Below, piece after piece: positions 8,253 to 61,984 of a stretch of DNA of 64,000 nucleotides (within the stretch, counting starts at the first letter, position 1; each line of letters begins with the position of its first letter). Made by a program: the position numbers and the translations under genes. The stretch spans positions 48,897 to 112,896 of IMG/VR virus record IMGVR_UViG_3300025736_000010. One strand, given 5' to 3'. The notes under the pieces were generated by a model. The model was not told the origin of the DNA. It did no database searches and saw only the letters and a program-made list of their open reading frames with translations. The DNA is from a virus.

Positions 8253-8789
8253 ATAGAGTGGAGAGAAATTCCTGGTTATGAGGATAACTATTTGTGTTCC
8301 GATCATGGGGATATATTTAGTTTGTCTCACAACAAGATAAAAGGTAAAAGACTGTCTAACAACGGATACCTTAGAGTCAATCTATATAAGAAATGCAAGC
8401 AAGAAACAGCGCTTGTTCATTCTGTTGTGGCGAGAACGTTTATTGGTGAACGCCCAGAAGGAATGCAAATAAACCACAAAGATGGTGATAAAACCAACAA
8501 TCACGTATTAAATTTAGAGTACGTTACTAGTAAAGAAAACTCTAGCCACGCTATTCGCACAGGATTGTTTAATCCTGTAGGCGAAAATAATGCAAGCAGC
8601 AAACTGTTAGAATCTGATGTTGTGGAGATACAGTATATGATTGATAGCAAGAATTTTATGCAAAAACAGATTGCAGACAAATATCATGTTTCTTCCGCAA
8701 CAATATCGGCTATAGCGACTGGTAGAATCTGGGGCACAGTAACAAATATTGAGTACTGCCCCAAAAAGAGAATAAAGGAGAGTGCATAA
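8253..8789 (+). CDS. NUMOD4-HNH homing endonuclease, apparent AUA start
   Basis: A 178-residue free-standing homing endonuclease. N-terminal NUMOD4 motif 'EWREIPGYEDNYLCSDHG', HNH core 'VNLYKK ... VHSVVARTFIGERPEGMQIN' then 'HKDGDKTNNHVLNLEYVT', and a C-terminal helix-turn-helix (KQIADKYHVSSATISAIATG). The motif begins immediately after an ATA at 8253, 8 bases from GGGAGG, and no ATG, GTG or TTG exists in frame upstream before a stop. The next TTG (8292) would delete the NUMOD4 motif. So AUA is the likely initiation codon. It sits directly before glycosyltransferase genes. Confidence 0.8.
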   Translation: MEWREIPGYEDNYLCSDHGDIFSLSHNKIKGKRLSNNGYLRVNLYKKCKQETALVHSVVARTFIGERPEGMQINHKDGDKTNNHVLNLEYVTSKENSSHAIRTGLFNPVGENNASSKLLESDVVEIQYMIDSKNFMQKQIADKYHVSSATISAIATGRIWGTVTNIEYCPKKRIKESA

Positions 8790-14876: not shown

Positions 14877-15815
14877 ATGGGCGTAAAAAGAGTAACGCCG
14901 GAAGAAAGCGCCTTAATGATAACTGCATACGAGAATGGAGCTACTGGGAAAGAAGCTGCTGCTCTTTGCGGTAAGTCTACACGTACATTTTATGGCGTTC
15001 TGAGAAGGGCTGGTAAAGAGTCTAGAGGCAATAGGAAGTATTCGCTCGACGAGGACTTCTTTGGGGTTATAGACTCTGAAGAGAAGGCATACTGGTTGGG
15101 ATTTATAGCCGCTGATGGCGGGGTTTATAAGCGCACGCTTGAAATTACATTAAAATCATCCGACGTAGGACATTTAAGAAAATTTGCCTCTGCTATTAAT
15201 TCAGATTGCCCAATCAAAGGGATTAGAAAAGATGGAATAATAACAAAATATAGAATACGAATAAACTCGGTGAAGGTTGTAAAAGATCTGAGTATGCTTG
15301 GGATCGTTCCGAATAAAACTTTCATTGTGCGCCCAACACCGGGCATTTCAAAATCTCTGTTAAGACATTATTGGAGAGGAGTAGTAGATGGGGATGGTTG
15401 TTTGCGTATTTTTAAAAGCCATCGATCTACTGGCAAATTACAGGCACGAGTTGCACTTGCTGGTAGTTTTTGGATAGTCGATGGGTTTAGAGAGTTTGTT
15501 TTGGGGTTTACGAATTCGCGTACAAAGCCATATAAAAAGGAAAACATATTTCAAATAGATTATTGTGGCCTCGGGCTTCCGCAAAATATTGTGTCTGTGT
15601 TATATAGCAATGTGCGTATCGCGCTAGACAGAAAAGACGATCTTGCAAAACAAATATTAGCATTAAAAAAGTTTGAATCAAAATATATTCATATAACAAA
15701 AGATATTATTCTTTCCGCATATAAGGATGCAGGGAGTTGGAAGGGTGCTGCCCGCAAACTAGCAATTCCAGAGACAAGCTTGTGTCGTATCCGCGACAAT
15801 CTTATGGTGATATAA
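14877..15815 (+). CDS. LAGLIDADG homing endonuclease
   Basis: A 312-residue protein with two LAGLIDADG helices: 'AYWLGFIAADGGVYK' (about residue 63) and 'HYWRGVVDGDGCLRIF' (about residue 162). An N-terminal helix-turn-helix (GKEAAALCGKSTRTFYGVLR) and a C-terminal one (WKGAARKLAIPETSLCRIRD) flank the nuclease. It is free-standing. It ends immediately before the tape measure ATG and may target the matching intein-free allele there or another tail gene. Confidence 0.85.
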   Translation: MGVKRVTPEESALMITAYENGATGKEAAALCGKSTRTFYGVLRRAGKESRGNRKYSLDEDFFGVIDSEEKAYWLGFIAADGGVYKRTLEITLKSSDVGHLRKFASAINSDCPIKGIRKDGIITKYRIRINSVKVVKDLSMLGIVPNKTFIVRPTPGISKSLLRHYWRGVVDGDGCLRIFKSHRSTGKLQARVALAGSFWIVDGFREFVLGFTNSRTKPYKKENIFQIDYCGLGLPQNIVSVLYSNVRIALDRKDDLAKQILALKKFESKYIHITKDIILSAYKDAGSWKGAARKLAIPETSLCRIRDNLMVI

Positions 15816-15816
15816 T

Positions 15817-18800
15817 ATGCCCGCACTCGGAGCAATGGCTGGATCTGCTGTTACTGGCAATATAGGGAGCGCATGGGTAACTGTAGGAGCGAATACAAGC
15901 CAGCTTGTTAGTGGTATGGGCGCAGCGACAACGTCCATGAAGACATTTGGAAAAGCTGCTATGGTCCTGTATGCTGTTGTCGCTGCTGTTAAAGCAACTA
16001 CAAGCGCATTCATTGAATTTGATCGCCAATTGAAAAACACATGGACATTGCTCGATTCGTCATCTAAACAGATGGACGCTACAGGCAATAGTGTAAGGAC
16101 AATGGCTAGGCAGTATCAAACAGGCGCTGCCGAGGCACAAGAAGCGCTTTATCATATCGTCAGCGCCACCTTCTATAATGCAGATGCCATGCGCATTCTA
16201 GAAGAAGCCACCAAAGGCGCAGCCGCTGGACTTGCATCTCTTGGCTCTACCGGCGACATGCTCACAACTGTATTGAATGCGTATAGAATGTCTGCTAGCG
16301 AGGCTACTACAATTAGTGATTATTTGTTCCAGACAATCCGTTACGGGAAGTGTGTGACAGGCGATACTAGAGTTCTTCTGTCAAACGGAAAATACGAGAG
16401 AATCGATGGTTTAGAGAATGGCGCAGAGGTTGTCTCGTTTGATGGTGAGCGTTTTGTTCCTAAAAACGCTGAATGGGTATATCAAGGTGAAAAGATTGTT
16501 GTAAAACTTACGACACAACTGGGTCGCGAGATTAAAACGACATTTAATCATCCTTATCTTACAAAAGACGGCTGGAAAAAGGTGATGGACCTTTCTGTCG
16601 GTGATGAGATAGCAGTACCGACAAACATCCCATACTTTGGTAACGTTCATGTTGATAAGAATAAAGCAGCGTTCTTAGGCTTATGGATTGCTGAGAGTGC
16701 GCCAGAAGCCGGTTGCCCGAGGATAACAACCTCTCTATATAAAGACAAGCTAGAAGAAGTTGCTAAATATTTTGGATGCACTATTAATAATGTTGAGAAA
16801 AGGCCTGGCAAGACTCCGGTGTACGATTTCTCTAATAACTATAACGGGAATAAGGCGATGGAGTTCTTGCGCGAAACTGGGCTAGACAACTGCACTACTG
16901 CGACAAAATACGTGCCAGATGAAGTGTTTTCTTGGGACAAAGAATCAGTGGCTGAGTTTTTGCATTGGTATTTTAACGGTGATGGGTGGTTGAACAGGGG
17001 GATAGATAAAGGGCGAGGGTATAATCACCAGCTTGGCGTTTGTTCAAAGTCAGAAATCCTTATTAGGCAAGTTAGCCATCTATTATTGCGCTTTGGCATT
17101 GTAGGCAGAGTTAGGAAGAGACGATACTCTGAAAAAATAATAAAGAGCCTTGTAAGAGAGAACAATAACGAGTTTTGGGTATGGGAATGTGCTAGGAACA
17201 CTGATATACGTAGATTTGTAAAATTTATAGGAATAGACAGGGAATTTGCTGAAGAGGCTGCTAATAGACCATTCGCCGAAAGGCGCGATCATGCTAACTG
17301 TAAAATATCGTCTGATGATGTGATTAGCATTCACGAGCTATACGCAGCTGGTGAACATACCGCCACGGAAATATCAAAGATGTTCGGCATTAGCCAACAG
17401 TACGTTTCTGATATTGTACGCGGAAAGAGAAGAGGGGAAAGTCTTGTATTCCCTAAATCACTTGACGTTAAAACACACTATAGATATGACAAGATAGTTG
17501 AGATCGAAGAACTGCATAAAGAGAAGGTATACGATTTAGTTGTTCCAGATTTGCACAACTTTGTCGCGGAAGATATTATTGCCCACAATACCACCATGTC
17601 AGAGCTGGCGCACCAAATGGGTCGTTTGAGCGGAGTTGCTGCGCCGGTAGGTGCCTCATTCTCGGATATGAGTGCAGCAGTGGCGACGCTAACAAGACAA
17701 GGAATTAGAACTGACTGGGCAATCACGAGTCTGCGCCAAACTCTCATGCAATTCATCAAACCTGTTAAAAATCTCAAAATGGCGCTGAAATCTCTTGGAT
17801 ATGAGTCAGGTGCTGTGCTAATCAAGCAAGAAGGGTTTGCTGGCGCGCTGAAGCTGATCACTAAATACGCTGAAGAAAACGGCATTGAGATGGAGCAAAT
17901 GTTCACCAACGTTCGTGCCATCACTGCTGTTCTTCCTTTGGCCACGACTGCTGCTGGCGAGTACGCAAAAGATCTTGACAGAATGGCGCATTCTAGTGGC
18001 GCCGCAACTGCTGCGTTTGAAAAACAGACTCAATCATGGTCATATCAGATACAAAAGTTTACTACAATGCTTAATGATTTTGCTATTAGCCTGGGCGAGC
18101 TATTAATGCCAGCACTGAAGGGCGTAATGGTGGTTATAGAGGGAATTACAACCGCGTTGCGGCCCGTTTTGGCGTTATTTAAGATGCTCGGAGGGGATCT
18201 TTTATTGGGGGTCGTTTCAACTGCCGGGGCTATGGCTGTTGCTGTGTGGTTGTCCGTAAAGGCGTGGGCTGCATTAGCGGCAACGGTGTCGAAGGCGGCA
18301 GCCGCGATGGGGATTGCTACGGCGGCTACTGTTGCTTTAACGAAGGCCCAACAAGCATTAGCCTTGTCTACATATACAACTGGCGGACTTATTCCGAACG
18401 TTTCTATGGCTTTTGCTGGAGGGGCTACCGGTGCCGCTGGGACGGTTGGATTTTTAGCATCGTTAAAAAAATCAATAGGTAAAATTATTTCAAAGTTTGG
18501 TGCCTTGAAGTTGTTGGGGGCGGGCCTGGCCGGGGCTTTTGCAGTTAAACAAATAATGAATATTGAGGTCGAGCCCGTTATAAAGATGGGACAGGTGCAA
18601 GGGGGCGCGACAGCAAGGAAGGCCCTAAGTGATTCGCTGAATAATGTGCTTGGTGGGGTTGCTGGTGGAGCAGTAATGGGGGCTATGATTGGCGGGCCGT
18701 GGGGAGCGCTTGCTGGTGGCGTGACGGCCGGTGTTGGCATAATAATAAGAATAGTCCATGAAATAAGAACAACTCAAGCAGAACTAGACGCTCCAAGAAT

Positions 18801-21800
18801 AGAAGAGCTGAAAAGTAAATTCATAGCTGAGTTTGATTTTCCTGAAGGAATAAAAGGAACCATAGAAACAGTAGAAGATTTTTTACGCAGTTTCGATAAC
18901 GTTCCAGATGGTGCACTTGATGCTATAGTGAAAGAACTTGAAAGATTTTATGATGTTGAGTGGGATTTTCTTACGCCTGAAACGCACGTTCTTACAAAGA
19001 CAGCCTCTGAGTTCAAGAAGTTTTTTGGCGACATGTCGTTTATTGCTTCTGCTGGGATGGATGAAGTTCTATCTTCATTTGAATCTGCTTGGAGAAGTAG
19101 CAAAGTATTAGAACTTACTGGTGGTGCGGCCACTCCAACTTCGTCTGAACTAATGCTTATGGGTGAGGATGCTTCGGCATTTTGGACAGCAGCAAGGAAT
19201 TTGCGAACAGACACAATGGACGAAGCAAATATTGGCGACATTCTTGACTTTTATGCAGAACAAGGAGCGGAAGTAAGGGCCGCTATTTATGGCGGACTAG
19301 CTTCAGAAGAGATAGATACAATATCTGTGCAAAGAGCAATATATGAGGCCATAAATGCTTACAAGGGGGAAAATAATCCAGCACAGGCAAGAAAGGCTCT
19401 TGAGCTGGCCGTGAAACCGTTGCTAGATGTTCTTGACGCAGATCAAATACTTGCATTTATAAGTGAAGGATTCGTCGGGACGGCCCCTGGCATGATAAAA
19501 ACAATTCTAGACGCGGCTGGTAAGACTATAGAAGAATATTTATCATTCCTTGAATCTTCCGCAACAATGCCAAATGTTCCGCAGATTGAAATGGCCGGAA
19601 TAAGCGAAGGCATGTTTAGCCTGTCTCTGGCGGCGACTGGGCTTGATCCTCTTGTGTCTAAATTAGGTAGTGAGTTTTACGTTTTGTGGAAAGCGATGGA
19701 CGAGGCGGACCTTGCGGACAAGGCGGCTGAGTGGAAAAAAATGAGCGACTTGCTGGACGATTGGACTGAGAGAGTGGAGATTCTAGCACAAGCAGACGAG
19801 ATTACAGAAGCCCAGGCAAATATGCTTGTTTTAACCATAGGAAAACTTGGGGATGCAATAGGGATAACAAACAAAGAAACTAAATCCTTAGTAGACAGTC
19901 TGAACGAAATTAAACTTTCAAATCTTTTGAAAGGTCTTAATAATCTAGACACATTAATGGTAGATGCAGTTAAGGAGTCATTATCTACTAGATATATTCC
20001 TTCTGATATCTCGCCAACAGGTACATCCAACATTGATCAATCTGCTTCAGCCTTTTCTGGTATTGACCAAACGGTTGGGGCTTTTAGCGATTCAGTTTTC
20101 TCATTTACGGGTGGAATAGAAAAGATCAATCAAGGCATTGAAAGTTTTGTAGAAACCGGAATAGAAGGAGTTGAGTCTCTAAATGCAGGCGCAGATCTAT
20201 CTGGATTTGTAAGTGCAATACAGGAAGCTGTAGGAATTGCAACATCGCTTGGAACAATTATAGAAGGAATTGGGGCGTGGATAGACATGGGGAGTCTTGA
20301 CAAATTCACAGAGGAACAACAGAGAGAAATTCTTGAGCATTACGAAACCCTAAAGGCGCTTAAAGAAAAATACGATGCTGCTGAACTTGCCAGGGCCAAG
20401 GCAACCGCAGATGCTATAAGAAGAGCAGATCTCTGGGGTGCCATTATTGAAGGAATGGAGTCTGTTGCGAACGCATTGGCATCAGCAATAATGCCAGAGG
20501 ATTCAAACTATAAGGGCACAGCATCGTCTGTAATTGGACTAGGAACAACGGCTGCTTCTTATGCTCTTGGGCTTATTAGCGGACCTGTTGGGTGGATAGC
20601 AGCAGCCGGAACTTTAATTGCAAGTGTTATAACTGACTCTGCCAACGCGATGAAAAAAGCTAAAGAAAAAGCGATGCAAACATTTTCTGAAATAGTGTCC
20701 ATTGGCTCCGATATATTCGACGGCCTAAAGAACGCCATTACTACTACAATATCGTTGTTCGGCGATCTTTCAGATGGAACACAGAAACTTATAAATGGAT
20801 TTGCAAGCCTATTCACACAAACTGAGGTATACGGGAGATTGCAAAGCGCTCTAGCCTCTGCGCAAAGTACAATATTCAACATGCTTCTAGGATTCCTATG
20901 GCCTATCGTTGCTGTTTTCGAGGCGCTCTTCGGAGTAACTACAGAAGTAGCTGAGGTAATAGAAAAAGAAACTGAGGCGAGAATGGCAAGCCTTAATGTG
21001 CCTTCTGGATACAAAGTAACTAGGGCAGAGTGGGAAGCAGCTACCCCTGGGCAACCTGGTATGCCGACTACAACTACAGACACACCAGACATACCAGACA
21101 AGCCAGACTCGGACCTACCTGAATGGGTACAAGAATTCATAGACCAGTGGGGTAGTGCGATTGATGACGCGATAGAGCCACTGAAAAGATTTGGCGACGC
21201 TTTAATAGAAATGTGGCAAGTATTAATGCCTGGAGTAATGGATGCGCTTCTTGAGTCTGTACATGAGTTTGGAACAAACATGCTTGGAATTGCGGAAAGG
21301 ATAAGAACAGACTTGTTGCCTGTGCTTGAAGATACTCTGCCGAACACTATATCAGGATTGTTCGATTTCTTTGCTGGGGCAATCGAAGGTGTCGCGATAT
21401 TGTTTGTTGATGTACTGACAAATACGATGCCGAGCATAGAAGGATTTGCAATCGCACTTGGACTGCTTGGAGATGAATTTCCAAGGCTTGCAGAACAACT
21501 TGCAGAAGGATTAAGCCCCGCGATAACTTCTTTAATCGACGGCATATCAACTCTTATAAACGTGTTAATAGGGACTGAGGGGTTCGATTGGACTAACTTA
21601 TTTGGAGATGGTTTTGATTGGACTAACTTTTTCGGAGATGTAGACATTGATTGGGAAGATATGCTTAGTGGTATATCGCCGTTCTTTGACTGGCTGAATG
21701 AAAATCTTAGTGATATCGAACTTACGGCGTTAGATGACATTGTTAGAACTGTGACCGGCGCATTTAATCTATTAGCCGGGGCAGTTGAAGGAATAATAAA

Positions 21801-22836
21801 CTTCTTTGTTGGACTAACATTGCCTAATTTGGACTCTATTGCAGATTTATTTGATGTTCTTGGCGATATAGGTACATTGCTCCCTGATTTGGGGCTAGCA
21901 ATAGGGCTTGGATTGGCACCAGTTATGCAGACAATTTTAGAAGGAGCATTAATTCCATTAGCTGGGTGGATAAGGGACACGTTTATTCCTGATCTTGAGG
22001 GTTTATTTGGTGCATTTGGTAGTTGGTGGATTACTAATATGGACCCGTGGCTTCAAGATGACTTCTTCCCAAGGATAGCTGGATGGTTGGAAACCATATA
22101 TGGTTATTTAGATCCAATATTTGAATGGCTGTCAGGTGATGTTTGGGATTGGTTTTCTGGTCCAGTTTGGGATGCAATACAACCTTTTGTTGATTCTGTT
22201 CTTGAAATGTTTGAGGAATTTGGTGAATGGGTTGACGAAAACTGGGATGAGATATCAGAATTCTTAACCACAGTGTTAGCAGAGAAACTCGGCGACCTTC
22301 TTAGCGAATTAGATGGTTTTCTCGAAACCGTGAAAGAATGGACAACTGGTGGCAACCCAATGGCTAATGCACTCAGCAATCTTAAAGATTCATTTGTTTT
22401 ATTGTGGGATGTGCTAAAGCCGCTTGTTGGGCCTATATTTTATGCTGCTATCCTTCTACTTACGGCAGGAATAAGTATATTAGCTGGCGTTGTTTTAGGA
22501 GTTTTGATTGCGGTAGTGGCTGTTTTAAATGCAGTTATATGGGCGTGGAATAATCTTATACCATTTTCAACCAATATTGACTATATTGATTATCCAAGCC
22601 TGGATGTTGGCGGTGAAATACTGAGTAGCGGAATTGCATTAGTCCATAAGGGAGAAGTTGTTGCACCGGCAGGAACAGCTCCGCTTGGCAATTATAGTGG
22701 CGGCGGGAAGGCTATAGATAACACAATAGTTCTAGACGGCAATGTTTTATATAGAGGAATGAGAAAAGTAAATCAACGAGAACAACGAAGGAAAACAGGA
22801 TCGTCAATAGGGGGGAGGGCGTGGAACAGTGCGTAG
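15817..22836 (+). CDS. tail tape measure protein containing an intein
   Basis: A 2339-residue precursor, about 1926 after intein removal. The N-terminal region matches TP901-type tape measure proteins ('YQTGAAEAQEALYHIVSATF', 'ISDYLFQTIRYGK|TTMSELA', 'DMSAAVATLTRQGIRTDWAI'). Hydrophobic segments lie at about residues 770-960, 1570-1610 and near the C-terminus (ISILAGVVLGVLIAVVAVL), fitting a protein that enters the cell membrane at infection. The C-terminal half has Trp/Asp-rich repeats (GFDWTNLFGDGFDWTNFFGD). At about 1.5 angstrom per residue the tail would be near 290 nm long. It is co-transcribed with the upstream endonuclease. Confidence 0.9.
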   Translation: MPALGAMAGSAVTGNIGSAWVTVGANTSQLVSGMGAATTSMKTFGKAAMVLYAVVAAVKATTSAFIEFDRQLKNTWTLLDSSSKQMDATGNSVRTMARQYQTGAAEAQEALYHIVSATFYNADAMRILEEATKGAAAGLASLGSTGDMLTTVLNAYRMSASEATTISDYLFQTIRYGKCVTGDTRVLLSNGKYERIDGLENGAEVVSFDGERFVPKNAEWVYQGEKIVVKLTTQLGREIKTTFNHPYLTKDGWKKVMDLSVGDEIAVPTNIPYFGNVHVDKNKAAFLGLWIAESAPEAGCPRITTSLYKDKLEEVAKYFGCTINNVEKRPGKTPVYDFSNNYNGNKAMEFLRETGLDNCTTATKYVPDEVFSWDKESVAEFLHWYFNGDGWLNRGIDKGRGYNHQLGVCSKSEILIRQVSHLLLRFGIVGRVRKRRYSEKIIKSLVRENNNEFWVWECARNTDIRRFVKFIGIDREFAEEAANRPFAERRDHANCKISSDDVISIHELYAAGEHTATEISKMFGISQQYVSDIVRGKRRGESLVFPKSLDVKTHYRYDKIVEIEELHKEKVYDLVVPDLHNFVAEDIIAHNTTMSELAHQMGRLSGVAAPVGASFSDMSAAVATLTRQGIRTDWAITSLRQTLMQFIKPVKNLKMALKSLGYESGAVLIKQEGFAGALKLITKYAEENGIEMEQMFTNVRAITAVLPLATTAAGEYAKDLDRMAHSSGAATAAFEKQTQSWSYQIQKFTTMLNDFAISLGELLMPALKGVMVVIEGITTALRPVLALFKMLGGDLLLGVVSTAGAMAVAVWLSVKAWAALAATVSKAAAAMGIATAATVALTKAQQALALSTYTTGGLIPNVSMAFAGGATGAAGTVGFLASLKKSIGKIISKFGALKLLGAGLAGAFAVKQIMNIEVEPVIKMGQVQGGATARKALSDSLNNVLGGVAGGAVMGAMIGGPWGALAGGVTAGVGIIIRIVHEIRTTQAELDAPRIEELKSKFIAEFDFPEGIKGTIETVEDFLRSFDNVPDGALDAIVKELERFYDVEWDFLTPETHVLTKTASEFKKFFGDMSFIASAGMDEVLSSFESAWRSSKVLELTGGAATPTSSELMLMGEDASAFWTAARNLRTDTMDEANIGDILDFYAEQGAEVRAAIYGGLASEEIDTISVQRAIYEAINAYKGENNPAQARKALELAVKPLLDVLDADQILAFISEGFVGTAPGMIKTILDAAGKTIEEYLSFLESSATMPNVPQIEMAGISEGMFSLSLAATGLDPLVSKLGSEFYVLWKAMDEADLADKAAEWKKMSDLLDDWTERVEILAQADEITEAQANMLVLTIGKLGDAIGITNKETKSLVDSLNEIKLSNLLKGLNNLDTLMVDAVKESLSTRYIPSDISPTGTSNIDQSASAFSGIDQTVGAFSDSVFSFTGGIEKINQGIESFVETGIEGVESLNAGADLSGFVSAIQEAVGIATSLGTIIEGIGAWIDMGSLDKFTEEQQREILEHYETLKALKEKYDAAELARAKATADAIRRADLWGAIIEGMESVANALASAIMPEDSNYKGTASSVIGLGTTAASYALGLISGPVGWIAAAGTLIASVITDSANAMKKAKEKAMQTFSEIVSIGSDIFDGLKNAITTTISLFGDLSDGTQKLINGFASLFTQTEVYGRLQSALASAQSTIFNMLLGFLWPIVAVFEALFGVTTEVAEVIEKETEARMASLNVPSGYKVTRAEWEAATPGQPGMPTTTTDTPDIPDKPDSDLPEWVQEFIDQWGSAIDDAIEPLKRFGDALIEMWQVLMPGVMDALLESVHEFGTNMLGIAERIRTDLLPVLEDTLPNTISGLFDFFAGAIEGVAILFVDVLTNTMPSIEGFAIALGLLGDEFPRLAEQLAEGLSPAITSLIDGISTLINVLIGTEGFDWTNLFGDGFDWTNFFGDVDIDWEDMLSGISPFFDWLNENLSDIELTALDDIVRTVTGAFNLLAGAVEGIINFFVGLTLPNLDSIADLFDVLGDIGTLLPDLGLAIGLGLAPVMQTILEGALIPLAGWIRDTFIPDLEGLFGAFGSWWITNMDPWLQDDFFPRIAGWLETIYGYLDPIFEWLSGDVWDWFSGPVWDAIQPFVDSVLEMFEEFGEWVDENWDEISEFLTTVLAEKLGDLLSELDGFLETVKEWTTGGNPMANALSNLKDSFVLLWDVLKPLVGPIFYAAILLLTAGISILAGVVLGVLIAVVAVLNAVIWAWNNLIPFSTNIDYIDYPSLDVGGEILSSGIALVHKGEVVAPAGTAPLGNYSGGGKAIDNTIVLDGNVLYRGMRKVNQREQRRKTGSSIGGRAWNSA
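16351..17589 (+). mobile_element. intein with LAGLIDADG endonuclease in tape measure gene
   Basis: A 413-residue intein. It begins CVTGDTRVLLSNG (block A, Cys1), has block B 'TTFNHPYLTKDGW', LAGLIDADG-type blocks 'AFLGLWIAESAPEAG' and 'FLHWYFNGDGWLNRG', a helix-turn-helix (TATEISKMFGISQQYVSDIV), and ends with block F/G 'VYDLVVPDLHNFVAEDIIAH' plus Asn. The +1 residue is Thr. Removing it restores the conserved YGK-TT motif of tape measure proteins. All splicing residues look intact. Confidence 0.9.
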
Positions 22837-37806: not shown

Positions 37807-37835
37807 TTGACAAAACGTTAGAAATAGTGTATAAT
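37807..37835 (+). promoter_or_regulatory. sigma70-type promoter (TTGACAAAC family)
   Basis: TTGACA (37807-37812), 17 bp, TATAAT (37830-37835). Predicted transcription start coincides with the first base of the leader structure. Confidence 0.85.
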
Positions 37836-37841
37836 ATAAAC

Positions 37842-37920
37842 GTTGGCGGCAAGGGCATCAGGCAGCATTGCCTATCCTACGGGTTGCCCGGTCGTCAACA
37901 AATAAACTTGCCGTAGGAGG
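37842..37920 (+). promoter_or_regulatory. structured leader RNA with RBS-masking pseudoknot
   Basis: P1 is GTTGGCG (37842-37848) with CGTCAAC (37893-37899). A hairpin AGGCA-gcat-TGCCT lies within. The loop sequence CCTACGG (37876-37882) is fully complementary to CCGTAGG (37911-37917), whose last bases are part of the AGGAGG ribosome binding site. The same layout, with different bases but the same pairs, precedes the HNH gene at 53941. Conserved positions include GGCGGC...AAG, ATTG and ACAAATAA. This looks like a cis-regulatory RNA controlling translation. Confidence 0.65.
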
Positions 37921-37926
37921 TCGAGA

Positions 37927-38484
37927 ATGAAAGAGAAGTACGATGAAGAAATTATTGGAGAACGATGGGAACCAGTTGTTGGCTATAAAGGATGGTACGA
38001 GGTTAGCGATATTGGAAGAGCGCGTAATGTAGCGGACAGAAAGCATACATTCGTTGGTAAGATTCTGAAGCAACGCATAATTAGCAGTGGCTATTGCGGC
38101 ATTAGTCTTTGTAGAAATGGCGATCAACATGATGCGATTGTCCACCGACTAGTTATGGCCGCATTCGTCGGCCAATGCCCAGAAGGCAAAGAGGTCAACC
38201 ATAAGGATGGCGATAAAACCAACAATAGATTGGACAACCTAGAGTATGTAACACAATCTGAGAATATGATTCACGCATTTGATACTGGACTACATTCTCT
38301 CGGTGGCGAGAAAAACAATATGAGTAAATTGACTGAGGAGAACGTGCATGAAATTAGGCGGCTTTTGCGTGCTGGGTTGACGCATAAATCTATTAGCGCT
38401 CTTTTCAATGTTTCTCGCTCTTGTATTGGCCTGATCGCAACAGGGGAAAGATGGGCCTATCTAAAAGAAGAAGGGGAGGAATAG
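37927..38484 (+). CDS. NUMOD4-HNH homing endonuclease
   Basis: A 185-residue protein. NUMOD4 'WEPVVGYKGWYEVSDIGRAR', HNH 'AIVHRLVMAAFVGQCPEGKE' then 'VNHKDGDKTNNRLDNLEYVT', and a C-terminal helix-turn-helix (GLTHKSISALFNVSRSCIGL). A paralogue lies at 53941-54483. It is inserted between exonuclease and ATPase genes, with its own promoter and structured leader. The stop overlaps the next start (TAGTG). Confidence 0.9.
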   Translation: MKEKYDEEIIGERWEPVVGYKGWYEVSDIGRARNVADRKHTFVGKILKQRIISSGYCGISLCRNGDQHDAIVHRLVMAAFVGQCPEGKEVNHKDGDKTNNRLDNLEYVTQSENMIHAFDTGLHSLGGEKNNMSKLTEENVHEIRRLLRAGLTHKSISALFNVSRSCIGLIATGERWAYLKEEGEE

Positions 38485-45632: not shown

Positions 45633-48482
45633 ATGACAAAATTAAATAGGATAGATAGGTACTTGAGTCGGGAAGGCTGGGAAATCAGAGAGAATAGCAA
45701 TATGGGGTACTCGCTACAGGGTTTGAACGTGAGTATAACTGAAAATGAAATTTCAAAATATTGGCTGAATGAGGTATATCCCAAGGATATTAAGGAGGCG
45801 CACGAGAGCGGGGACTTTCATATTCACGACCTTGGAACGTTGGGCTCATACTGTGTGGGATGGGACTTAATGGACCTTCTTACTAAGGGATTTAAGGGTG
45901 TTCGAGGGAAGATCGAATCTCTCCCAGCAAAACATCTAAGAGTTGCGATGTTGCAGATAGTTAATTTCATGTATACGCTACAGGGGGAAACGGCAGGAGC
46001 ACAAGCGTTCTCTAATGTCGATACATTTCTTGCTGCTTTTATTAGGTCTGACAATGTTTCATACGAAGATTTGAAACAAAATGTCCAAGAATTTATATTC
46101 AATTTGAACGTCCCGACTCGCGTTGGGGCGCAAGCGCCATTCACAAACTTCACTTTAGATTTAGTCGTTCCAGACCATCTAAAGAAACTCCCAGCCATCG
46201 TTGGAGGGAAGCCGTGCGATTTTACGTATGGTGAACTACAGCATGAAGTTGACATGTTTAACAGAGCATTCGCTGAAATTATGATTGAGGGCGATGCTGG
46301 TGAAAGACCATTCACGTTCCCAATTCCCACATATAATCTAACAGAAGATTTTGACTGGGAAAACCCTATATACAATCCAATTTGGGAAATGACGGCCAAG
46401 TACGGCACCCCGTATTTTTCTAATTTTATTAACAGCGATATGAATCCCGAGGATGTCAGAAGCATGGCTATTCTTGGTTCACAGAATGTAATATATAAGA
46501 ATGGGAATGGGAGGGTTTCTATAGATGAAATTAGAAACATTGTTTCTAGGTGGATAAGCAGCAAAGAAAAACCAAGCTATAGCATACTTAATAATGGAAA
46601 ATTTGTTAGCATCTCAGACATGTTTGAAGTCCCGTATGATAAATACGATAAGTATGTGTCTATCATGCTTGATAATGGGTTGAAGCAGAATTTCTCGATG
46701 CAGCATAAATGCCCTGTGGTGCGCGACGGAGAGATAACAAACGTTGAGAGCCAAGACCTAATTGCTGGCGATATGCTTCTTTTTGCAAAAAGAGCATATG
46801 ATATAGATGAGGCAATTGGTAGCTACGAAGCCGGATTAATGGTTGGTTATTTTCTTGGAGAAGGATGGAAACAAACACATAGTGATTCTGAAATAAACTT
46901 CGCCATAAACATAGAAAGGGAAGACATAGTTAAAAGGATATATGATTTCTTTACTGCAATCGGGTGTGAAGTATCGTATTATAAACAGGAAGATGTGCAC
47001 ATATTCAAGGTTCACGTTTATGGCAGACAGGCCGTTGGGTTTGTATCTCAATATATTCGTGGTACAACAGCAAAGACAAAAAGGATAGACTATAAAACGT
47101 GGAACACAAGCCTTCTTTTTAGGGAGGGAATGTTTGAAGGATACCAAGATACTGATGGAAGTAAAAAGGTAAGAAATATAGCACACACTACTAATAAAAA
47201 GCTCGTTGAAGATCTTGTTGTCCTTTGTTCTTCTATTGGTAGAGGAGTTTCTTATTCTGTGAATAAAAACAATACCAGATACTTCAAGAAGGATAAGTCG
47301 GATTTTGAACGCTTTACAAGCTATAAGCTGGAAGAAAGAGATTACAACGATTTTAATGACGACTATTATACTGTTGATGTTAAGTCTGTTTCTTTTGAGA
47401 ACTCAAAATCGGATGTTGTTTATAATTTTACAGTTTCTACAAAAGAACATCTATATGAACTTCCTAATGGTATAGTCACACACCAATGCTGTAGGCTGCG
47501 GATCAACAACGGAGATCTATACAAAAGGGGCGGCGGGTTATTTGGAGCAAATCCCAAGACTGGAAGTTTAGGTGTAGTCACAATTAATTTGCCTAGAATT
47601 GGGTGTATCGCAGATAACGAAGAGGAGTTTTTAGATATTCTTACTGGGCTTATGTGGAAGGCAAAAGACTCTTTAGAAATTAAGAGAGAACTTCTAGAAA
47701 AGCTAACAGAACAAGGGCTTTATCCGTACTCTGAGTTTTATCTTAGAGATATTAGTGTTAGTGGGAAAGGATACTGGCATAATCATTTTTCGACAATCGG
47801 CACAATTGGGATGAATGATGCTTTGTACAATTTGCTCGATACAGATATTATGTCTGAAGAGGGGAAGGAATTTGCAATTAGGGTTTTATCGCATATGAGA
47901 GAGGTCATTTCATTGTTTCAGAACAACACTGGGAATATTTACAACTTGGAAGCAACCCCCGCAGAATCCGCAAGCTTCAAACTAGCGCTGAAAGACCTTA
48001 AATATCTTGACGACATCAAGTTTTATAACATAGACGTTGTTGGCGGGGATACTCCGTATTATACGAATTCTTCCCAATTGCCTGCATCATCTGGGCTTAA
48101 TTTATTTGATTCTCTAGATTTACAAGACGAGCTACAGGTATTGTACACTGGAGGGACTGTGTTCCATACTTTCCTTGGCGAGCGAGCGCCTGATATTGGC
48201 TCGTTGAAGGCTCTCATCAAAAAGATTGCGACAAACTATCATTTGCCTTACTTTTCCATAACTCCGACCTTTTCCGTATGCCCTAATCATGGGTACGTTG
48301 CTGGAGAACATTTGTTTTGCCCAGAATGTGAGGAAAGATGCGAGATATATTCCCGTGTTGTTGGCTACATAAGGCCGCTTGATGCGTTTAATGATGCCAA
48401 GGTCGCCGAGTTCTTCCAAAGAGACAACTATACAGTTTCTGGGGATGTTCCAGAAGACGACTTGACAAACACCAAAGAATAG
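45633..48482 (+). CDS. nrdD: anaerobic (class III-type) ribonucleotide reductase NrdD with intein
   Basis: A 949-residue precursor, about 609 after splicing. Extein motifs 'HESGDFHIHDLGTLGSYCVG', 'QAFSNVDTFLAAF', 'NFINSDMNPEDVRSM|CCRLR', 'GGLFGANPKTGSLGVVTINL' and the C-terminal zinc site (CPNH ... FCPEC) place it in the short class III family without an ATP cone. The C-terminus reads 'RVVGYIRPLDAFNDAKVAEF'. The family has 'WNxGKxxEF' here, with the glycyl radical Gly, so the radical glycine appears to be Ala (codon GCC). If real, radical chemistry must differ, be supplied in trans, or be lost. The gene uses an ATG after a weak GGAGAG site. Confidence 0.85.
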   Translation: MTKLNRIDRYLSREGWEIRENSNMGYSLQGLNVSITENEISKYWLNEVYPKDIKEAHESGDFHIHDLGTLGSYCVGWDLMDLLTKGFKGVRGKIESLPAKHLRVAMLQIVNFMYTLQGETAGAQAFSNVDTFLAAFIRSDNVSYEDLKQNVQEFIFNLNVPTRVGAQAPFTNFTLDLVVPDHLKKLPAIVGGKPCDFTYGELQHEVDMFNRAFAEIMIEGDAGERPFTFPIPTYNLTEDFDWENPIYNPIWEMTAKYGTPYFSNFINSDMNPEDVRSMAILGSQNVIYKNGNGRVSIDEIRNIVSRWISSKEKPSYSILNNGKFVSISDMFEVPYDKYDKYVSIMLDNGLKQNFSMQHKCPVVRDGEITNVESQDLIAGDMLLFAKRAYDIDEAIGSYEAGLMVGYFLGEGWKQTHSDSEINFAINIEREDIVKRIYDFFTAIGCEVSYYKQEDVHIFKVHVYGRQAVGFVSQYIRGTTAKTKRIDYKTWNTSLLFREGMFEGYQDTDGSKKVRNIAHTTNKKLVEDLVVLCSSIGRGVSYSVNKNNTRYFKKDKSDFERFTSYKLEERDYNDFNDDYYTVDVKSVSFENSKSDVVYNFTVSTKEHLYELPNGIVTHQCCRLRINNGDLYKRGGGLFGANPKTGSLGVVTINLPRIGCIADNEEEFLDILTGLMWKAKDSLEIKRELLEKLTEQGLYPYSEFYLRDISVSGKGYWHNHFSTIGTIGMNDALYNLLDTDIMSEEGKEFAIRVLSHMREVISLFQNNTGNIYNLEATPAESASFKLALKDLKYLDDIKFYNIDVVGGDTPYYTNSSQLPASSGLNLFDSLDLQDELQVLYTGGTVFHTFLGERAPDIGSLKALIKKIATNYHLPYFSITPTFSVCPNHGYVAGEHLFCPECEERCEIYSRVVGYIRPLDAFNDAKVAEFFQRDNYTVSGDVPEDDLTNTKE
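46467..47486 (+). mobile_element. NrdD intein (Ala1, C-terminal Gln) with LAGLIDADG domain
   Basis: A 340-residue intein (precursor residues 279-618) inserted directly before the Cys-Cys of the active-site loop (SM|CC). It begins AILGSQNVIYKNGNG, so residue 1 is Ala, and ends 'VVYNFTVSTKEHLYELPNGI' then VTHQ, so the last residue is Gln with the penultimate His kept. LAGLIDADG-like helices are 'GLMVGYFLGEGWK' and 'GMFEGYQDTDGSK'. Ala1 inteins splice by attack of the +1 Cys on the N-terminal bond, which fits the +1 Cys here. Confidence 0.85.
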
Positions 48483-48490: not shown

Positions 48491-48496
48491 GATTTT

Positions 48497-48612
48497 TGTG
48501 CGGTTGCGGCTTCTTAGGAAGATCTGACGTGCGAACGGCAGGCGGAAAGCAAGTCGATATGACCACTGCAACCCATAAGATCGGGAAGGCACGGCTCCCG
48601 GCCAGCCGCACA
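48497..48612 (+). promoter_or_regulatory. structured leader RNA, possibly cobalamin-riboswitch-like
   Basis: A 10-bp closing helix pairs TGTGCGGTTG (48497-48506) with CAGCCGCACA (48603-48612). Inside are blocks resembling the cobalamin riboswitch in the same order: GGAA...GTGCGAA, GCGGAAAGC, ACCACTG and GGGAAGGC. GGTTGC (48502-48507) can also pair with GCAACC (48568-48573), an alternative to the closing helix. The length is shorter than most cobalamin riboswitches. A structured leader is well supported; the cobalamin identity is tentative. Confidence 0.55.
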
Positions 48613-48636
48613 ATCTAAAGCAACAAGGGAGAAACC

Positions 48637-48927
48637 ATGAAAACAGTAGAAGTGCATCTGGGGTATTTCAAACAGGGGGATGATTTACAGTCCTGCATAG
48701 AGGAAGAAGGCAACAACGCAAAGGCACTTTATTTGCTTGCTGAAAGATTAGAGGGAGTCGTTAAACACATTGACAGCATTTCTAGTGTCTTCACCTCAAA
48801 AACTCACATAGATATATGTGCCGACACTCATTACATTGCTATTACATGCGAAGACGAAGTAGCGCAAAAACTAGTAGATGAGGGCTTGGCATATTTTCCA
48901 GAATACGATGAAGAAGATGGCCTATGA
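48637..48927 (+). CDS. hypothetical protein after leader RNA
   Basis: A 96-residue acidic protein behind AAGGGAGA. Alpha/beta sequence (DICADTHYIAITCEDEVAQK). It is the first gene after the structured leader, so its expression should respond to it. The stop overlaps the next start (ATGA). Family unknown. Confidence 0.6.
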   Translation: MKTVEVHLGYFKQGDDLQSCIEEEGNNAKALYLLAERLEGVVKHIDSISSVFTSKTHIDICADTHYIAITCEDEVAQKLVDEGLAYFPEYDEEDGL

Positions 48928-51053: not shown

Positions 51054-51418
51054 GGGGGCGACTTTGGAATCGAGCGGTTACAGGAAGACATGATTGCAAG
51101 CGTAGCGCCAACTACTAAACTGGCAACAAAAACAAAGTTCAACATTAAAACACTCTTCGCTAATGCGAAGGATCGAGTCGTAAGCTTCGTCAGTGGACTC
51201 TTCTCGGTCAACGCCACACTGGCAAACGCAGTACCTGTCCCAGCTTAGAGCAAGGGACCTACAGAGGCTTTCCTGGTTGAGCCAATACTAATCGACCAAG
51301 TGGTGGAACGACCGAAGCTGGTCAACCCCAAGGCATCCATGCCTAACTGGATATGCTTGTAGACGTTGTGTAGAATGTAGATCGTGACTCGGTGTTCGAA
51401 TCACCGACGCCTCCACCA
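51054..51418 (+). ncRNA. ssrA: tmRNA (ssrA), phage-encoded
   Basis: A 365-nt one-piece tmRNA. Acceptor stem GGGGGCG (51054-51060) pairs with CGCCTCC before ACCA; the 3' CCA is encoded. T-arm CGGTG-TTCGAAT-CACCG and the conserved 5' GGAATCGAGCGG and 3' GTAGACG blocks are present. A H-type pseudoknot (GCGAAG/CTTCGT at 51165-51190 and GAGTC/GACTC at 51174-51200) is the likely PK1. The tag frame ends ...ANAVPVPA then TAG (51246-51248), the stop lying in a GTCCC/GGGAC hairpin loop as usual. The resume codon is probably GCC 51213 or GCA 51222. Rescues stalled ribosomes, with host SmpB; no smpB is seen here. Confidence 0.93.
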
Positions 51419-53819: not shown

Positions 53820-53848
53820 TTGACAAATAGCATAAAATAGTGTATAAT
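53820..53848 (+). promoter_or_regulatory. sigma70-type promoter (TTGACAAAC family)
   Basis: TTGACA (53820-53825), 17 bp, TATAAT (53843-53848). Its start falls at the base of the leader helix. Confidence 0.85.
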
Positions 53849-53856
53849 GATAGATG

Positions 53857-53934
53857 CAGGCGGCCTAAGTCGTGGGTCATATTGATCCATCTCATGGAAC
53901 GATGCGGGTCGCCTGACAAAATAACCATGAGGTG
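53857..53934 (+). promoter_or_regulatory. structured leader RNA with RBS-masking pseudoknot
   Basis: P1 CAGGCG (53857-53862) pairs with CGCCTG (53910-53915). Hairpin TGGGTCA-tat-TGATCCA is internal. Loop CTCATGG (53891-53897) is complementary to CCATGAG (53925-53931), which overlaps the GAGGTG ribosome binding site. Pairs differ in sequence but not in layout from the leader at 37842-37920, which is covariation. Confidence 0.65.
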
Positions 53935-53940
53935 TTAGGA

Positions 53941-54483
53941 ATGAAGGAGATGGAAAATTGGAAAGACGTAGTTGGCTATGAAGGATGGTATGAGATTAGT
54001 GATTGGGGGAATGTCAAGAGGGTAAAGAAATGGAAAGGCGCAGTTGTGGGGAGGGTTCTCAGGAATCAGACAGATAAGTATGGATACAGGAGTGTCTATC
54101 TCAATAGAGACGGGAGCCGCAGGTTTTTCAGAATCCATCGTCTAGTCGCGGCGGCGTTTATTGGTGTATGCCCTGACGGCAAGGAAGTTAATCATAAAGA
54201 TGGGCGTAAGGCGAATAACCATTTAGAGAATCTTGAATATGTAACATCGTCTGAAAACCAACGCCATTCGTATGCCATGGGATTAAGGTCTAATCGCGGG
54301 GAGAAGGCGCCAAACAGCAAGTTGAAAGAAGAAGATGTGCGTAAGATAATTCTGCGTATTGGGAAAGAAACGCATAAATCAATCGCTGCGGATTTTAACG
54401 TAGGGAGATCGACCATTGCTGCTATTGCGTGCGGTCAAAATTGGGCGTATCTAAAAGAGGAGGACGATGACGAACGAACTTAA
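53941..54483 (+). CDS. NUMOD4-HNH homing endonuclease
   Basis: A 180-residue paralogue of the 37927 gene product. NUMOD4 'WKDVVGYEGWYEISDWGNVK', HNH 'FRIHRLVAAAFIGVCPDGKE' then 'VNHKDGRKANNHLENLEYVT', helix-turn-helix 'HKSIAADFNVGRSTIAAIA'. ATG 53941 fits the GAGGTG site hidden in the leader; GTG 53932 is too close. It is inserted directly upstream of, and overlaps, the terminase gene. Confidence 0.9.
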   Translation: MKEMENWKDVVGYEGWYEISDWGNVKRVKKWKGAVVGRVLRNQTDKYGYRSVYLNRDGSRRFFRIHRLVAAAFIGVCPDGKEVNHKDGRKANNHLENLEYVTSSENQRHSYAMGLRSNRGEKAPNSKLKEEDVRKIILRIGKETHKSIAADFNVGRSTIAAIACGQNWAYLKEEDDDERT

Positions 54484-60450: not shown

Positions 60451-60523
60451 ACGCCCGTAGCTCAGCGGACAGAGCAGCGGTCTTCTAAACCGCTGGCCGA
60501 AGGTTCAAATCCTTCCGGGTGTA
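60451..60523 (+). tRNA. tRNA-Arg(UCU)
   Basis: Cloverleaf: acceptor ACGCCCG/CGGGTGT (7 bp with one G-U), D-arm GCTC...GAGC, anticodon arm GCGGT-CTTCTAA-ACCGC with anticodon TCT, T-arm GAAGG-TTCAAAT-CCTTC, discriminator A. CCA is not encoded. Reads AGA/AGG, which are frequent in these genes. Confidence 0.93.
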
Positions 60524-61908: not shown

Positions 61909-61984
61909 GCTCCCGTAGCTCAGTTGGAAGAGTATCGGTCTTATATGCCGGTTGCCGCAGGTTCGAGTCCTGCCGGGAGTACCA
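61909..61984 (+). tRNA. tRNA-Ile(UAU)
   Basis: Cloverleaf: acceptor GCTCCCG/CGGGAGT, D-arm GCTC...GAGT, anticodon arm TCGGT-CTTATAT-GCCGG with anticodon TAT, T-arm GCAGG-TTCGAGT-CCTGC, CCA encoded. Reads AUA directly, unlike the bacterial lysidine CAU tRNA. Anticodon stem has two G-U ends. Confidence 0.9.

Follow-up and report, generated by a model that had tools for sequence, protein, structure and literature searches.

A family of structured mRNA 5' leaders, approximately 81 to 90 nt in length and apparently undescribed, was identified in a group of related uncultured phages. Each leader contains a pseudoknot whose 3' strand lies at or within the Shine-Dalgarno (SD) sequence, and we consider it likely that these leaders occlude the ribosome binding site (RBS) and hold translation low by default, mainly on genes for HNH homing-type endonucleases. 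At the level of sequence comparison, covariation establishes the fold as well as the pseudoknot and where it sits on the SD, and we infer the repression, the default-off state, and the reason for its use. The family is regarded as real because the fold is preserved among relatives from other uncultured phages even though their letters differ. It combines clear covariation with absence from Rfam, and the leader is small, self-contained, and readily testable by reporters.

The window referred to below is the whole stretch of 64,000 nucleotides that was analyzed, comprising bases 48897 to 112896 of a ~112.9-kb contig of an uncultured phage. The contig is probably a complete genome, since a 193-bp terminal repeat is present.

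Two leaders in the window

Leaders 1 and 2, together with their promoters and downstream genes, lie on the plus strand, and both begin at a sigma-70-like transcription start, as the sequence-only reading had proposed. The TTGACA-17-TATAAT promoter of leader 1 occupies positions 37807 to 37835 (-10 box, 37830 to 37835) and that of leader 2 positions 53820 to 53848 (-10 box, 53843 to 53848), with the closing helix P1 beginning 6 nt and 8 nt past the -10 box, respectively. This promoter type is not peculiar to the leaders, as 24 ATAGTGTATAAT-like sites were found in the window versus 7.7 expected.

The two leaders are 84 to 85 nt long, and their minimum-energy folds contain P1, P2, and P3 in each case, in agreement with the common helix and hairpin layout noted earlier. 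P1 encloses P2, which in turn encloses the P3 hairpin and the 5' strand of the pseudoknot (PK); the 3' strands of P2 and P1 follow, and after a spacer comes the PK 3' strand, overlapping the SD. In leader 1 (37842 to 37926; 59.6 bits with covariance model R3, the seed of which includes this leader), P1 is formed by GUUGGCGGC (37842 to 37850) and GUCGUCAAC (37891 to 37899), P2 by GGGCA (37853 to 37857) and its partner at 37885 to 37889, and P3 by the hairpin AGGCA-GCAU-UGCCU (37860 to 37873), whereas the PK strands are CCUACGG (37876 to 37882) and CCGUAGG (37911 to 37917), the latter overlapping the SD AGGAGGU. The interval first assigned to this leader, 37842 to 37920, was correctly placed but ended slightly too early. 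Leader 2 (53857 to 53940; 55.9 bits with R3, which likewise has this leader in its seed) has a P1 of CAGGCGGCC (53857 to 53865) and GGUCGCCUG (53907 to 53915), a P2 of UCGU (53870 to 53873) and its partner at 53899 to 53902, a P3 hairpin GGGUCA-UAU-UGAUCC (53874 to 53888), and the PK strands CUCAUGG (53891 to 53897) and CCAUGAG (53925 to 53931), which overlaps the SD GAGGUG.

One long, mostly unpaired stretch remains in each minimum-energy fold and is an exact complement to the SD region of the same leader, so that the proposed pairing of a 7-nt loop with the RBS holds letter for letter; it can be extended to 8 bp in leader 1 and 10 bp in leader 2, with one G-U. A P1 helix plus SD pseudoknot of equal or better score occurred in only 7 (leader 1) and 2 (leader 2) of 20,000 dinucleotide shuffles, and the folding z-scores, calculated without the pseudoknot, were -3.1 to -4.7. 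A covariance model built on leader 1 alone recovered leader 2 in a search of the window (E = 0.0036).

Both leaders precede genes for NUMOD4 plus HNH_3 endonucleases (37927 to 38484, 185 amino acids, and 53941 to 54483, 180 amino acids), the proteins of which are ~55% identical. The upstream neighbor of leader 1 is a YqaJ gene, and the terminase large subunit gene adjoins the second HNH gene on its downstream side. A third NUMOD4-HNH_3 gene of the phage (8227 to 8789; ~8253 to 8789) has the same promoter type and a short unstructured leader; ATG, GTG, and TTG are absent at its apparent N terminus, and an ATA follows the SD.

Several other elements of the window were recorded. A 145-nt leader at 48496 to 48640, with the same promoter type and closed by UUGUGCGG/CCGCACAA, lies 5' of a 96-amino-acid ORF; its fold z-score is -1.7, and it had no meaningful Rfam match. 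Directly 3' of another TTGACA..TATAAT promoter is a tmRNA gene (51054 to 51418; RF00023, 57.1 bits, above the gathering threshold), for which ARAGORN made no call. The tape-measure gene (15817 to 22836) contains an intein (Intein_splicing plus LAGLIDADG), and the gene for an anaerobic ribonucleotide reductase (45633 to 48482; 949 amino acids) looks split by an insert, possibly another intein. Genes for tRNA-Arg(TCT) and tRNA-Ile(TAT) are located at 60451 to 60523 and 61909 to 61984, respectively.

Relatives in other phages and covariation

Searches for relatives covered proteins, sequence patterns, and structure. Contigs reached via P0001, P0002, and the terminase were, without exception, copies of the window phage with 100% identity and thus offered no variation, a scan for the promoter plus GGCGGC returned the same phage and chance matches only, and nucleotide searches of INPHARED and PLSDB (including some 50,000 phage records) yielded no relatives. 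A simple P1-plus-PK descriptor was weakly specific (2 of 108 and 6 of 80 control leaders scored at least 17) and served only as a filter. An HNH profile scan over viral contigs led to L204/L205 (IMGVR 3300023235_000114 and 3300023292_000132) and L232 (3300013120_000025), the leaders of which have the layout of leaders 1 and 2 and the PK CCUACAG/CUGUAGG. When viral contigs were scanned for this PK, the interior being left variable, L296/L297 (3300031227_000580 and 3300035698_003166) and L289 (3300020171_000437) emerged, in which the leaders lie directly 3' of a -10 box and 5' of HNH genes.

Covariance model R2 was seeded with L204, L232, L296, and L289 only, and the pseudoknot was not modeled. 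On the full ~113-kb genome of the window phage, its only two matches at E ≤ 10 were leader 2 (E = 0.014) and leader 1 (E = 0.29), both of which were therefore recovered by a model built without them, the E values of these models being rough. R2 also matched L325 at 2842 to 2925 (E = 0.0063), 5' of an HNH_3 gene and with the PK CUAUGAU/AUCAUAG, and L319 at 15410 to 15496 (E = 0.0075), 5' of a ParB-like gene and with the PK CUUUGAG/CUCAAAG; both reside in the same phages that supplied the R2 relatives. Since the pseudoknot was not part of the model and the PK letters of these two members differ from the R2 consensus, they could not have been picked by pseudoknot pairing. Weak matches in L315, L320, L330 to L332, and L333 (a bacterial genome) were rejected as spurious, as they covered the SD tail only or fell in coding sequence.

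In total, the searches added six members, from the contigs of four further uncultured phages, and the further covarying homologues that a covariance model search was expected to yield, if the reading of leaders 1 and 2 was right, thus exist. The impression that the two leaders match no known riboswitch also stood up: against Rfam 15, leader 2 had no match at E ≤ 10, leader 1 had only chance matches to snoRNAs, and the relatives had no match at E ≤ 1, with no family above the gathering threshold that would explain the leaders.

Covariation was assessed on eight leaders (leaders 1 and 2, L204, L232, L296, L289, L325, and L319). Standard pairs filled 96.5% of the pair cells, compared to 76.5 ± 1.9% after shuffling, and when the structure was slid by 1 to 3 columns, 36 to 53% of the cells were paired. 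Both sides had changed in 22 of the 26 pairs, versus 7.4 ± 2.2 in shuffles, and such changes were present in every helix: P1 (9 of 11), P2 (4 of 4), P3 (3 of 4), and the pseudoknot (6 of 7), in which the C-G at the SD end is invariant. As it was a covariance model that aligned the rows, the pair counts for P1 to P3 are biased toward the structure. After hand annotation with bulges corrected, none of the eight leaders had a noncanonical pair in any helix. Five PK types occur among them (CCUACGG/CCGUAGG, CUCAUGG/CCAUGAG, CCUACAG/CUGUAGG, CUAUGAU/AUCAUAG, and CUUUGAG/CUCAAAG), and the independent lineages number about six, L232, L296, and L289 being alike. L289 and L296 were chosen by their PK sequence, so that their pseudoknots add nothing, and the evidence for the pseudoknot comes from the nonseed members. 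What had been a two-member case of complementarity kept under differing bases thereby extends to eight leaders. The gene upstream of L232 encodes, as judged by eye, a C terminus resembling the one encoded by the YqaJ neighbor of leader 1, and for this reason the two leaders appear to occupy orthologous sites, with different letters and the same fold.

Downstream genes and other structured leaders

Seven of the eight members lie 5' of HNH endonuclease genes, which fall into three Pfam architectures (five NUMOD4 plus HNH_3, one HNH [PF01844], and one HNH_3), and one precedes a ParB-like gene; the names NUMOD4 for L232, ParB-like, and SpoU-type are based on sequence reading, without a profile match. 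The leader is missing from close HNH relatives in L208, L209, L211, and L212 and from the third HNH gene in the window phage. This indicates that HNH function does not require the leader, which characterizes this group of phages and not HNH proteins as such.

Leaders of similar topology were also seen 5' of other genes. In the window phage, one such leader (G000:C1:20165-20243; PK CCUCCGUG/CACGGAGG) lies 5' of an HTH_36 gene, but it matched neither R2 nor R3 (searched in L026), so that the likeness is one of topology alone. Others precede a SpoU-type methyltransferase gene (G003) and a ParB-like gene (G005); they are not significant members by the covariance models, and they have a core of their own and pseudoknots that covary with each other. 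Because HTH, SpoU-type, and ParB-like genes carry such leaders, the device appears to be HNH rich and not HNH exclusive. The proposed link to HNH homing-type endonuclease genes therefore stands for seven of the eight members, whereas the description of a switch for homing endonucleases was too narrow, given the ParB-like member and these look-alikes.

The HTH_36 leader, which is outside the window, is long and has two domains (G000:C1:20054-20243; L026:54-243). Its 5' domain contains UAGUGAAC/GUUCACUA crossing a GCAGCG/CGCUGC helix, and the second domain is a 16- to 17-bp hairpin with the loop CCUCCGUG, the pairing partner of the SD CACGGAGG; the two-domain leader had no Rfam match. The second leader type of the related phages, at L326:13257-13346 (minus strand) and at the G003 start codon 1999 (minus strand), has the core GGAGCCTTGC..GCAAGTCGCTTCA[PK]GGGTGACTCGCCC, with the PKs CUUUGG/CCAAAG and UUACUGG/CCAGUAA, and is found 5' of a ParB-like gene and a SpoU-type RNA methyltransferase gene.

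HNH leaders elsewhere (D6E L030, L034, L060, and Selenomonadaceae) are structured and of other kinds, and L030, L034, and L060 failed the model. The HNH leader in L034 (1340 to 1498) has, by eye, an apparent 18-bp long-range complement (including 2 G-U), CAATGCCCTGCGTGCTTG/CAAGTATGCAGGGCATTG, across the closing helix. That of L060 (1405 to 1495), an unrelated phage contig, consists of a P1, a hairpin, and a second hairpin of 10 bp, in which the loop CCAAUAC is the partner of the SD GUAUUGG; this is the same idea in another layout. The NUMOD4-HNH relatives in L127, L130, L131, L137, L144, L148, L150, L169, and L175 (mostly Selenomonadaceae MAGs) share a different conserved leader, in which the 3' strand (CGUUUC) of a 5' hairpin can instead pair with the SD GGAGCG. 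This suggests an RBS mask with two states; those searched had no Rfam match at the gathering threshold.

Proposed translational masking, alternatives, and known systems

In all eight leaders, P1 starts 4 to 8 nt past the -10 box, and the PK 3' strand ends 9 to 11 nt upstream of the start codon, i.e., at or within the SD. Transcription would thus start at or within a few nucleotides of P1, sealing the 5' end of the message in a helix, and P1, P2, and the P3 hairpin would keep the 7-nt PK 5' strand unpaired. Once the SD region has been transcribed, this strand would pair with it, block binding of the 30S subunit, and leave translation at a low default level; the protein would be made from the fraction of messages that is unfolded, or when some condition or factor opened the pseudoknot. 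Low or delayed translation may be useful for a DNA-cutting enzyme, and the same phages have the leader on other genes too. The extended PK duplex is predicted at -12.4 (leader 1) and -14.0 (leader 2) kcal/mol, no weaker than the SD:anti-SD duplex with -11.4 and -9.4 kcal/mol, and the PK is modest in some members, where the 7-bp core reaches -5.5 and -6.4 kcal/mol. By inspection, no U-run follows the P1 3' strand in these leaders, so that there is no intrinsic terminator in the leader and the platform is read as translational.

The spacer of 5 to 11 nt is short for crossing P1 plus P2 (about 13 to 16 bp), and the PK and full P1 may compete or need a bend. The domain therefore probably bends at the P1 purine bulge or at J1/2, or frays at its base, and the bend or fray point is where a regulator could act. 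Such tension, exploitable by a binder, is among the features that make a regulated operator, in which a phage or host protein or a small RNA locks or opens the pseudoknot in trans and several genes form a regulon, a quite plausible, if tentative, alternative. It would account for one fold being used on three HNH architectures and a ParB-like gene, with several copies per phage, and for the RU dinucleotide before the PK 5' strand and the UA-ending, often AACCUA-like spacer in six of the eight leaders; against it, primary sequence conserved across all members is scant and no candidate factor emerged. More doubtful, but possible, is a phage regulon in which the pseudoknot leaders on several genes per phage are switched by one trans factor or infection signal and the leader travels with homing endonuclease genes between phages. 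The gene set would then comprise the endonucleases, the ParB-like gene, and possibly the HTH and SpoU-type genes.

Autogenous control, in which each HNH protein binds its own leader, is favored by the seven HNH genes among the eight members defined by the covariance models and by the precedent of the T4 gene 32 product gp32 and its pseudoknot operator (PMC3014915). We consider it unlikely, because HNH relatives and the third HNH gene of the window phage are without the leader and other genes carry similar ones; the ParB-like member and the three different HNH architectures also speak against it. Similarly improbable is a structure that chiefly shields the mRNA 5' end from decay, with the SD pairing being secondary. 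The position of P1 at +1, 4 to 8 nt past the -10 box in all members, is as such protection would have it, but protection needs no pseudoknot, and the pseudoknot is fixed on the SD and covaries there in all members.

A metabolite-sensing riboswitch, which the sequence-only reading had offered as one option, is less probable still. SD-masking pseudoknots are common riboswitch platforms, and the J1/2 internal loop and the P1 purine bulge could make a pocket; however, the junctions vary, no unpaired nucleotides are conserved across the eight members as an aptamer core would require, Rfam gave no meaningful match at the thresholds above, and the downstream genes share no metabolic theme. An origin by chance folding, or by coincidence between two copies, for which one could cite that SD complements are possible in any leader and that a loose P1 plus PK arises in ~11 to 19% of shuffles, is refuted by the covariation and by the recovery of the leaders with a model from other phages.

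In the SD-masking pseudoknot riboswitches, e.g., preQ1, SAM-II, and c-di-GMP-II, the PK 3' strand includes or abuts the SD. The leaders are like these in the position of that strand and differ in having no aptamer core, Rfam match, or metabolic context. The rpsO operator of ribosomal protein S15, named in PMC3014915, also has a pseudoknot in a translational operator, but that of a bacterial ribosomal protein gene. In T4 gene 32 mRNA, the pseudoknot operator is likewise in a phage 5' UTR and tied to translational control, and a 2010 review called it possibly the only viral example in translational autoregulation (PMC3014915). The gp32 pseudoknot, at a distance of 67 nt upstream, serves to nucleate cooperative binding that extends into the RBS (PMC3014915), whereas in the leaders the PK strand is itself the SD.

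Masking of the RBS by RNA hairpins is established for the phage homing endonuclease genes of I-TevI and Aeh1 mobE (PMC2988022, PMC3014915). In the T4-like systems (I-TevI, I-TevII, I-TevIII, segB, and Aeh1 mobE), which include free-standing HNH genes, RNA structure likewise masks the SD of homing endonuclease genes in phages, by means of a simple local hairpin that forms on upstream-initiated transcripts and is absent from the late-promoter transcript (PMC2988022, PMC3014915). In the leaders, the partner of the SD is a strand that lies within the P1 domain, on the other side of the P1 3' strand, and there is no local stem. The family would thus be functionally T4-hairpin-like yet not a member of that class, because its SD is held in a long-range pseudoknot and the structure lies on the gene's own promoter transcript; compared with the T4-like hairpins, it is a conserved family of nested pseudoknots that is also found on non-HNH genes.
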